A DNA stretch of 15,716 nucleotides from Candidatus Sumerlaeota bacterium (GTDB taxonomy: Bacteria; Sumerlaeota; Sumerlaeia; JADFCT01), in contig JAPLSP010000763.1 of assembly GCA_026398575.1 (NCBI GenBank), positions 1-15,716 of the forward strand. The letters run 5' to 3'. The notes beneath the pieces are model-generated. The model was not told where the DNA came from. It did no database searches and worked only from the letters and a program-made list of their open reading frames with translations. Every line of letters begins with the position of its first letter. The first letter of the stretch is position 1. Made by a program: the position numbers and the translations under genes. Positions 12,214-15,082 of this stretch are shown one piece after another.

Positions 12214-13104
12214 TCAATATTTCTTCCGCATAGTGAGATAATGCGCCAGCGATGCCGCATAAGGCTCATCGGTCACAAGCGGCACCAGGTCAATGTGATT
12301 GTTATAGCATCCCACCCGCAAGTCCTCGCGGAACTTGTTCAGGTTCTCCATATACCCCCGCCGCAGACTGGCCGGGTCCACCATGCGCTTGATATTCACA
12401 TCCTCCAGCGAATCGAACCGCGTCCATTGCTTGAACGGAAAATCCAGTTCCGCGCGATCCCAGATTTGGAAGATGATGATCTCATGACGGGCGTGGCGGA
12501 AGTGCGCCAGGGCCGACATCAGCTCGGGCACGTCTCCGAAGCAATCGGAAAGCACGATGAGCAATCCCCGCCGGTGCAGGCGCGGCGCCAGTTCGTGAAA
12601 GACCTTGCCCAGTTCGGTTTCCTTTCCAGGCTTGCAGGCCGTGAGCGTATCCAGCAGGACGCGCAAATGGCCGGCCCGCGAACGAGACGGAATGTATTCG
12701 CCCATTTTATCATCGAATGTCACCAGACCTACGCCGTCGGCCTGGCGCAGCATCAGATATGCCAGGCACGCCGCCGTCCGGACAGCGTAGTCGAACTTGG
12801 TGATCTTGCCGCTGCCATAGGCCATCGAGCCGCTTTTGTCCACCAGCAGCGTGGCGCGCAGATTGGTCTCTTCCTCATATTCGCGGATGTAGAAGCGATC
12901 CGATTTGCCGAAGACTTTCCAGTCAATATGGCGGATCTCATCGCCCGGCACATAAGAGCGATGCTGGCGGAATTCGACGCTGAAGCCTTTATGAGGCGAG
13001 CGATGCAGCCCCGCGCAAAATCCTTCAACCACCTGCCGCGCCACAATCTCGAGATTGCCGATGGTCTGAAGGTCTTCGGGAAGCAGAATGTCGGCAAGGG
13101 CCAT
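12214..13104 (-). CDS. DUF58 family protein (vWA-type MoxR partner)
   Basis: The 296-residue product matches the DUF58 family over its whole length. The signature is [12 protein letters not shown] (34-45), then [16 protein letters not shown] (48-63). A vWA-like domain follows with LLVDKSGSM (86-94), giving D89, S91 and S93 of the DxSxS site, and [11 protein letters not shown] (181-191). There is no membrane segment, so it is probably cytoplasmic. DUF58 genes nearly always follow moxR and the products are thought to work as a pair; here a four-helix-bundle cassette separates them. The bases before the ATG (CATTATTCCTCGTT) offer no purine-rich ribosome site, and the inverted-repeat arm of the cassette begins about 10-17 bases upstream. 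Translation may be weak or depend on another signal. A later start would cut into the conserved N-terminus, so this start is kept. Confidence 0.9.
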
Positions 13105-13113
13105 AACGAGGAA

Positions 13114-13157
13114 TAATGTAAAATGTAAAATGAGAAATGAGAAATTGAAAATGAAGA
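13114..13157. repeat. Left inverted-repeat arm, six 7-bp units
   Basis: From 13115 the arm divides into 7-base units: AATGTAA twice, AATGAGA twice, AATTGAA and AATGAAG. Its core 13122-13157 matches the reverse complement of 13677-13712 at 35 of 36 bases. It has one more AATGTAA unit than the right arm. It lies 10 bases from the DUF58 start codon. Confidence 0.92.
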
Positions 13158-13239
13158 CGAATCGCCTATGAAATTAAAAACGCGTTAACTGATGAAAATC
13201 CTGAATTCTTAAAGATGATGAAATACCTGCGCGATAGCG

Positions 13240-13614
13240 TTAGCTTTCTTGAGGCTCCCTTGATGATGAGCCTCTCGCTGTCTTAATTGACCGGCCGATG
13301 ATTTTGCAGAGCTCAGCCGCTTCTGATAATATATCCTGCATCTTGTTGTGGGGTAAAAGCTCGCAGCGATCAATGAGTCGAAGCCAATAATATGTTTCCC
13401 TTAATTCCTTGAGAACAACTCCCAGCTTATGTACAAAGTCCGCTTTACTTTCAGCCCCCCGCGCTTCTTCGTAATTTGCACCTGTCGAAGTCCCACATTC
13501 CACCAACTGCTTCGCGATATGTCTTCCGATGAATGTTTTAGGCAAAGCCGAGGCAAGTTTGATAATCCTCGCGGCAAAGTTCAGAAACCGCTCCGAAAGA
13601 TCATCGCCTTTCAT
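13240..13614 (-). CDS. Four-helix-bundle protein of the 23S rRNA intervening-sequence type
   Basis: The 124-residue product is clearly of the four-helix-bundle family first known from 23S rRNA intervening sequences (TIGR02436/PF05635 type). Conserved stretches are FLNFAARIIKLASALPKT (11-28), the STGANYEEARGAES segment (43-56), DFVHKLGVVLKELRET (59-74) and YYWLRLI (75-81). The charged tail after about residue 111 (TARGSSSREPQES) is outside the bundle. Length agrees with the family. AAGGAG lies 7 bases before the ATG, a better ribosome site than its neighbours have. The family's biochemical role is unknown; a nucleic-acid-binding role has been suggested. Its presence within a MoxR operon is probably the result of insertion and not of a shared function, given its flanking inverted repeats and lower G+C. 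Confidence 0.93.
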   Translation of the reverse strand: MKGDDLSERFLNFAARIIKLASALPKTFIGRHIAKQLVECGTSTGANYEEARGAESKADFVHKLGVVLKELRETYYWLRLIDRCELLPHNKMQDILSEAAELCKIIGRSIKTARGSSSREPQES

Positions 13615-13676
13615 TGCTACGCTCCTTCATCCCGATGAATCTATGCGCCTCGTCATTCACTAACCATCTATCGCAG

Positions 13677-13713
13677 TCCTCATTTTCAATTTCTCATTTC
13701 TCATTTTACATTA
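13677..13713. repeat. Right inverted-repeat arm, five 7-bp units
   Basis: Read on the minus strand the arm is AATGTAA, AATGAGA twice, AATTGAA and AATGAGG, preceded by T. It has the same order of units as the left arm but one unit fewer, and one base differs in the last unit. It lies 16 bases past the moxR stop codon. In a minus-strand transcript it could pair with the left arm to form a stem of about 36 pairs closing the whole cassette. Confidence 0.92.
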
Positions 13714-13729: not shown

Positions 13730-15082
13730 TTATATCAGCTTCGGCTTGGGCCTCGGAATTGACGCCAGCGCTCGCGTGACGATGTCATCCACCGTTACTC
13801 CCTGCGCCTCTGCGTTGAACGTCGGCACGAGCCGGTGACGCAGCACCGGCGCCGCCAATGCCTCGATGTCCTCTATCGCAACGTGCATCCGGCCCTTGAG
13901 CAGCGCACGCACCTTGCCGCCCAGGATGAGCATCTGGCACGCGCGCGGGCCCGGCCCCCATTCGAGCAATTCTTTTATAAACGGCAGCGCCTCAGGCTCG
14001 TGCGGACGGCAGGCGCGGACCAGGTCCAGCACAAACGCCACGACATGATCCGGCGCCGGAACGCGCCGAGCCACTTTTTGACATGCAATGATCGCCTCGT
14101 CGCTGATGATTGGCCGCAGAGTGACGTCGAATCCGCTCGTGGTCCGTTCGATGATCCCGCGCTCCTGATCGCGCGTCGGATACAAGACCTTGACATGGAA
14201 CATGAACCGGTCGCGCTGCGCCTCGGGCAGGGGATAAGTGCCTTCCTGTTCGATCGGGTTTTGCGTGGCGAGGACGAAAAACGGCTCATCCAGCTTGAGG
14301 GTGTGTCCGCCCACCGTGACCGAATGCTCCTGCATCGCTTCGAGCAACGCGGCCTGCGTCTTGGGCGGCGTGCGGTTGATTTCGTCCGCCAATATCATTT
14401 GCGCAAAGATCGGCCCTTTGATGAACACCAGACGGCGGCGTCCGGTTTCCGGGTCGTCCTGGATGATGTCCGTTCCCGTGATATCGGCAGGCATCAAGTC
14501 AGGCGTGAATTGAATGCGCCGGAACGACAGGCGCATCACTTGCGAGAGACACCGCACCATCGCCGTCTTGGCCAGTCCCGGCACGCCCTCGAGGAGGCAA
14601 TGGCCGCGTCCCAGGATGGCGATCATGAGCTGCTCGATCACATCCTCCTGCCCGACGATAAAACGGGCAAGTTCGCGGGTGATTTCGCGATGCGCCTTGA
14701 CCAGCATTTCGGCGTGAGCGACGTCATCCTGCTGCGGTTGGGCTTTGCCTCCATCCGTTTTGGCAGCCTCCGGTTTGACCGGTTCATGCTTGGGACCTTC
14801 CGGTTTTGCTGCTTCCGGTTTGGAAGCTTCCGGCTTGGCTGCGTCCGCCTTGGCTGCGTCCGCCTTGGCTGCGTCTGGCTTGGCTGCTTCCGGTTTTGCC
14901 ACCGGCGCTTTGGGCGCTTCTGGTTTGGGGGCTTCTGCCTTGGCGGGTTCGTGCTTGGGCGCATCCGGCTTGGGCGCTTCTGCTTTGGCGGGTTCGTGCT
15001 TGACTGCTTCGGGTTTGGGGGGCTCCATTTTTGCAGGCTCTGGCTTTGCCACTACTGGTTTCACCGCTTCTTTGTCCGTCAT
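13730..15082 (-). CDS. MoxR-family AAA+ ATPase with N-terminal KPEAx repeat tail
   Basis: Residues from about 120 to 450 form a complete MoxR ATPase: Walker A GVPGLAKT (166-173), Walker B MILADEIN (229-236), sensor 1 ATQNP (272-276), arginine-finger region EAQRDRF (287-293), and sensor 2 GPGPRA (376-381). MoxR proteins are usually about 320-350 residues; this one has an added tail of about 113 residues with lysine at every fifth position and mostly Ala, Pro, Glu or Asp between. The tail is probably disordered. GGAG with a 9-base spacer precedes the ATG, so the tail is likely translated; starting later would remove it but I see no better ribosome site inside. The protein is expected to be a cytoplasmic hexamer acting with the DUF58 and vWA proteins encoded downstream, and it is the first gene of the operon. 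Confidence 0.92.
14744..15067 (-). repeat. 15-bp tandem repeat array encoding pentapeptide tail of the MoxR protein
   Basis: Codons 6-113 make pentapeptides of the form x-[A/P/V]-K-[P/A/H]-[E/D]. Lysine falls at residues 8, 13, 18 and so on to 113, 22 times without a break in phase. At DNA level 15-bp units are most alike at 14834-14893, where CTTGGCTGCGTCCGC occurs twice in tandem (14834-14863) and is followed by close variants. Such an array can expand or contract in frame. Confidence 0.93.

Follow-up and report, generated by a model that had tools for sequence, protein, structure and literature searches.

An IVP gene between inverted heptamer arrays at a moxR–DUF58 junction, most likely a mobile element

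The moxR–DUF58 junction of the window (the whole 15,716-nt stretch of DNA analyzed here) is occupied by an IVP gene enclosed by two inverted arrays of 7-bp units. We consider it rather probable that this cassette belongs to a widespread kind of mobile element with a single gene, made up of an IVP gene and inverted arrays of a tandem unit of its own lineage. The unit, as we picture it, would mostly be 7 bp long, sometimes 6, 8, or 9 bp, and would belong to the IVP lineage. Relatives of the cassette display the same architecture, inversion of the arms, units specific to a lineage, insertion at unrelated sites, and filled and empty versions of the same site without duplication of the target.

The cassette and its protein

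The element fills the junction almost wholly, as a reading made from the sequence alone had placed it; the spacing is about 17 nt on the moxR side (stop codon to upstream arm) and about 10 nt on the DUF58 side (downstream arm to start codon; Table 1). It lies outside any rRNA gene and is read from the same strand as both neighbors. The element is also, as claimed, richer in A/T than its surroundings, with a GC content of 42.7% against 61.8% for moxR and 57.6% for DUF58.

Table 1. Parts of the cassette and the adjoining genes (positions in the window)
Feature	Position	Strand	Remark
Whole element filling the junction	13114..13713	−	exact ends inferred
IVP gene (23S_rRNA_IVP / four-helix-bundle, S23 family), 124 aa	13240..13614	−	AAGGAG ahead of the start codon
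Upstream arm, ahead of the IVP gene; mirrors the downstream arm and has five 7-bp units	13676..13712	−	
Downstream arm: six 7-bp units	13115..13158	−	inverted match 13122–13158
moxR (AAA_3), upstream neighbor	13730..15082	−	
DUF58 gene, downstream neighbor	12214..13104	−	

The inverted repeats reported around the gene are borne out by alignment. The arms match at 35 of 36 bases (13122–13157 with 13677–13712), or at 36 of 37 when the comparison is extended to 13122–13158 and 13676–13712. Their local alignment score is 35, whereas shuffling the letters of these flanks 300 times gave at most 19; among 400 random flank pairs from relatives, the 99th percentile was 28 and the maximum 50. The heptamer make-up can be read from the sequence, with six units in the left arm (AATGTAA, AATGTAA, AATGAGA, AATGAGA, AATTGAA, AATGAAG) and five in the right. 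When the whole window was scanned, the two IVP arms were the sole period-7 arrays scoring at least 12. Two other repeats lie at a distance from the cassette: a separate long inverted repeat at 1588–1917, REP-like or MITE-like, with 53-nt arms at 1622–1674 and 1828–1880 (91%) and outer 32-nt arms (78%), and a 55-bp tandem duplication (98%) at 1417–1526, the unit of which contains a perfect 22-bp palindrome.

Profile matches and predicted fold agree that the gene encodes a four-helix bundle of the type found in 23S rRNA intervening sequences (IVSs). The protein matches PF05635 (23S_rRNA_IVP) with an E value of 4e-17 and 62.7 bits (curated cut-off 33.8) and TIGR02436 with 3e-25 and 88.7 bits (curated cut-off 24). 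Its predicted model is a four-helix bundle (pLDDT 92.6), to which structures 2rld and 2gsc are closest. PF05635 was the only domain found, no Y1/HUH transposase domain is present, and the protein matched no nuclease or polymerase family. A relative from X. campestris forms a ring of five (PMC4990558).

Two-sided arrays around IVP genes

For a survey, loci were taken from eight relatives, one order, further copies in multi-copy genomes, plasmids, and one phage, as well as from two phyla searched for proteins like the window IVP; the sample is weighted to two phyla near the relatives of the window. Plasmid loci came from 20 of 25 records. The profile matched in 208 of 212 loci, the other four being plasmids with an empty site (L195, L196, L197, and L199). 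Of 202 distinct elements, 194 were flanked on each side by 120 nt or more: 174 genomic ones, 19 of plasmid or phage origin, and that of the window. Because a plain inverted-repeat score separated IVP loci poorly from random flanks (9 of 91 loci reached the 99th percentile of the random flanks and none exceeded their maximum), periodicity was chosen as the test.

The design first proposed for a single junction, an IVS-like cassette with heptamer arms outside rRNA, recurs in this sample: 129 of the 194 IVP genes have period-7 arrays on both sides, compared with 0 of 600 random window pairs. Two-sided arrays of period 8 were found at 15 genes and of the harmonic 14 at 93, and the remaining periods gave 0 to 4 (controls, 0 to 3). 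With periods 6–9 taken together at a score of 12, at least one array was present at 166 of the 194 IVP genes and two at 113, against 32 and 2 of the 600 controls. One-sided period-7 arrays occurred in 12/600 and 9/600 random windows. In a gene-anchored control with other small open reading frames, two-sided arrays were seen in 0/82 and one-sided arrays in 8/82.

All 18 plasmid IVPs in the survey carry two arrays, and the hosts of these plasmids belong to Cyanobacteriota, Chloroflexota, Bacteroidota, Spirochaetota, and Bacillota. A clear array pair was missing at 52 of the 194 genes, many of which show a single array or periods of 6, 8, or 9. The phage copy, L182, is among these 52. A phage or viral vehicle was considered and rejected, given that copy, the distant matches in two phage records, and viral contigs that yielded no confirmed relative.

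Arms and protein lineage

Two arrays could be compared in 142 elements (129 of period 7 and 13 of period 8). In 131 of them the two arms match better as inverted than as direct copies, and the match of an arm to its own partner reaches at least the 95th percentile of random partners in 113. Variant units also keep their order between the arms: in 72 of 78 ungapped arm pairs, the in-register match is better than that obtained when one arm is shifted by a unit. The lengths of the two sides correlate weakly (rho 0.20). At one insertion, two plasmids have 4 + 4 units in the arms and another has 3 + 3, a single event that gives a hint of paired change in unit number.

As many as 110 distinct units occur among the 142 elements, and their similarity follows that of the proteins. 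Across 129 elements, with 58 pairs of similar flanks left out, the Mantel correlation between unit similarity and protein identity was 0.32 (p <= 0.0005), against 0.13 in reversed orientation. Mean unit similarity climbs from 0.42 for proteins without an alignment to 0.72 above 75% identity, whereas in reversed orientation it stays at 0.42–0.46. L181 and L190 share the unit TAATTCG, and one IVP lineage (L221–L226, L246, L265, and L267) has arms like GAATATCGAACAAGGAAT at mostly unrelated sites, with L224 and L226 sharing some flank. The pattern shows that the IVP gene and its arms travel together. The correlation may reflect nothing more than common descent of gene and arms as linked DNA, and binding of the unit by the protein stays putative. 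Copying of the unit from the target site, which CAATTCG near the L178 junction had suggested, does not hold generally, since units are shared by related elements whose sites are unrelated. One contig (C61 of G443; L239, L240, and L241) holds five IVP genes with five different units in about 40 kb.

The same junction in relatives

Eighty DUF58 loci were kept for comparison, and 72 of them have moxR upstream; the nearest DUF58 relatives of the window are from Sedimentisphaerales (74–76% identity). An IVP gene was not found in 71 of these 72 other moxR–DUF58 junctions (tblastn, E 1e-3), which answers the call of the sequence-only reading for an empty site in relatives and disagrees with its counter-scenario of a gene present at this junction in all relatives without the arms. 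The single exception, L018 from Chthoniobacter, is probably an independent arrival, because its IVP is just 37.5% identical to that of the window and its unit is a different one, TGAATTC. At L026 and L027 an IVP gene sits one junction further on, between DUF58 and BatA, with the units ATCGAAC and AAACGCC, respectively. These two loci share a similar outer inverted sequence despite their differing heptamers; they probably descend from one ancestral insertion, which suggests turnover of the unit there.

A second counter-scenario, arms that are widespread without the gene, holds in part, for gene-less arrays do occur here and elsewhere. Inverted arrays stand at the moxR–DUF58 junction without an IVP gene in L001, L006, L010, and L059 (L001 was recognized by eye, the array scan giving one side), L020 has a single array there without an IVP, and L026 has one weak array. 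In G768, 26 places match a single 38-bp arm with at most nine mismatches (20 stretches preselected for arm match). Chthoniobacter flavus gave 87 + 92 overlapping hits to a hexamer pattern, often in close inverted pairs, and its two IVPs use other units; a Dolichospermum plasmid bears further TAATTCG arrays within about 4 kb of its IVP element. The gene-less arms in these last three cases mean that arrays can exist without a cognate IVP in residence. At L006 and in genome G008 the repeats are palindromes of about 80–90 bp built of TTAATC-like hexamers, which have a high copy number in Chthoniobacter flavus.

Such repeats are reminiscent of REPIN/RAYT systems, in which a single gene has surrounding repeats and the genome also contains gene-less palindromes and single repeats. 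RAYT is a Y1 (HUH) transposase. Gene-less inverted pairs were found in relatives of the window; the window IVP differs from RAYT in having no Y1/HUH domain, and IVP arms are tandem arrays of 6–9 bp. The arms could accordingly be independent palindromic repeats, with the IVP gene a passenger of an unrelated transposase such as Y1/RAYT. The inverted arrays without IVP and the single arms of G768 would fit this picture, as would a weak correlation between the numbers of IVP and Y1_Tnp genes (rho 0.30, p 0.02, 59 genomes). However, score-12 arrays on both sides were present at 0 of 20 Y1-transposase loci (5 have one array outside the open reading frame), Y1_Tnp was not found in 4 of 50 IVP-bearing genomes, and units follow the IVP lineage. 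We regard a passenger gene as very improbable, and RAYT was rejected as the mobilizing enzyme on the basis of the 20 Y1 loci.

Filled and empty sites

Five comparisons of filled and empty sites were available, all for elements other than that of the window. The L265 element lies between a stop codon and the Shine–Dalgarno sequence of the next gene, where a few base pairs are involved; it is absent from G840, G450, G834, G835, and G528, and in G577 the arms are kept and most of the gene is gone. The other four, in which target DNA was replaced, are on Nostoc-type plasmids, and the lengths given, taken from local alignments, are upper limits: 188 bp of other sequence at the empty site for L190 (against L329 and L330), 25 bp for L191 (L331 and L332), 61 bp for L189 (L333), and about 328 bp for L178 (L195–L197 and L199). 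It is possible that the replacement at these four sites is due to later deletion or plasmid recombination, the left flank of L190 being 90.6% identical and its right flank 99.8%. No target-site duplication of the DDE type was seen in any of the five comparisons.

That the cassette is mobile, as the sequence-only reading suggested, is upheld by the 71 junctions in which no IVP gene was found, by these five empty sites, and by related elements at unrelated sites. The window cassette is most likely a mobile element, because filled and empty sites exist elsewhere, its own junction is without a detected IVP in nearly all relatives, and the unit tracks the protein lineage. We infer that the IVP protein recognizes its own unit and that the arms act as the ends of the element. 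Joining would be performed by host replication or repair enzymes, since the IVP matches no nuclease or polymerase family and the target is replaced, not duplicated. A strand that folds back on itself can template its partner, which might keep the arms matched.

Orientation and the RNA strand

A simple gene caller placed the IVP gene on the strand of both neighbors in 122 of 194 cases and opposite to both in 4; 34 were mixed, 23 incomplete, and 11 inside an open reading frame. These counts are noisy because the caller mislabels some GC-rich loci (the window itself was called SO although both neighbors share the IVP strand). Among 15 distinct annotated plasmid sites, the IVP gene shares the strand of its neighbors at 12 and is opposite to both at 3. 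Where the neighbors share the IVP strand, the fit is close: the upstream array begins a median of 2 nt past the upstream stop codon (112/142), and the downstream array ends a median of 9.5 nt ahead of the next start codon (116/142).

This strand bias is what one would expect of an element acting at the RNA level like the 23S rRNA IVS. In such an element the arms would pair once transcribed, the cassette would be excised from the mRNA by RNase III, and spread would proceed via RNA. RNase III does cut the rRNA IVS of Coxiella (PMC4990558), and in the RNA fold of minimum energy the arms of the window are paired (z −4.2). Although the arms can pair in RNA, the RNA processing envisaged earlier found no support in the mismatches: among 136 elements G-U numbered 156 and A-C 132 (p = 0.18), and this nonsignificant excess gives no clear sign of selection for a sense-strand RNA stem; selection on such a stem was set aside as unsupported. 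Two of the three plasmid insertions opposite to both neighbors, L191 and L189, have long, well matched arms, and the search for a reverse transcriptase (RVT_1) was negative in 29 of 50 genomes that carry an IVP, some of which may be incomplete. An RNA-level element is, on balance, unlikely. Because well-armed antisense insertions exist, the strand bias may be due to selection rather than mechanism, and the snug, same-strand place in operons would be what selection leaves.

Reverse transcription could also enter through the protein. After 2rld and 2gsc, the IVP model resembles Avd of a phage retroelement, including its structure in diversity-generating retroelement ribonucleoproteins (4dwl and 8ub7; Foldseek E 0.1–0.6, TM 0.62–0.73 to the query), and a likeness between PF05635 and Avd has been pointed out (PMC10053308). 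An IVP of this kind would recruit a host reverse transcriptase in trans, and cDNA would replace the target as in diversity-generating retroelements, which is consistent with replacement without duplication. However, IVP and RVT_1 numbers are unrelated (rho 0.07, 59 genomes), six of the genomes in which RVT_1 was not found have at least seven IVPs, and no reverse transcriptase is encoded by the seven window genes scanned on this 15.7-kb contig. A reverse transcriptase in trans was rejected on the unrelated numbers, and the Avd-like role seems to us highly unlikely.

Relation to known systems

The plan of the cassette is already known in rRNA, and the window element fits as the same plan outside rRNA. 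The Coxiella 23S rRNA IVS has a protein of the same family, a length in the range of about 430–600 bp, a terminal inverted repeat of 28 bp, and, ahead of the S23p open reading frame, tandem heptamers that vary in copy number between strains (PMC4990558). That source terms the IVS selfish, offers transposition remnants as one hypothesis, and still calls function and origin unclear 25 years after discovery. Unlike the 23S rRNA IVS, the window element is in a protein operon, and none of the loci compared matched any of six 23S motifs. IVP open reading frames of the same Pfam family are likewise found inside rRNA insertions of CPR bacteria (PMC11270868), but at rRNA sites; the term "inverted repeat" is absent from the main text of that paper.

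Dispersed arrays of 7-bp tandem units are also known from bacteria. The cyanobacterial STRRs are an example. Others are the TAACTGA arrays (PMC4679880), for which the authors saw no evident transfer mechanism, and the five-heptamer sites of Geobacter (PMC2700814); the terms "four helix" and "S23" are absent from the main texts of both papers. Among the matches listed for the open-access literature, we found no description of IVP genes with heptamer arms outside rRNA.

More tentatively, IVP elements might constitute a separate class of mobile DNA, in which a noncatalytic protein ring reads a lineage-specific unit of 6–9 bp, host enzymes do the joining, and rRNA IVSs, gene-less palindromes, and many heptamer arrays, including cyanobacterial STRRs, are members or remnants. 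If IVP genes are the mobile core, a single protein with its repeat would be enough to test the questions of the rRNA IVS and of the heptamer arrays. A mobile element with no recognizable transposase, recombinase, or polymerase would be mechanistically unusual, and a repeat specificity that differs between lineages could be a source of repeat-binding proteins.

Plasmid IVPs recur among defense-type genes (L180, L189, L194; L175, L181, L183, L187), in settings that include the spaces between cas2 and cas1, csx2 and cas1, and drmD and pglX, as well as restriction-modification genes. The 23S rRNA IVP is listed among CRISPR-linked proteins in a figure legend of PMC10910872.
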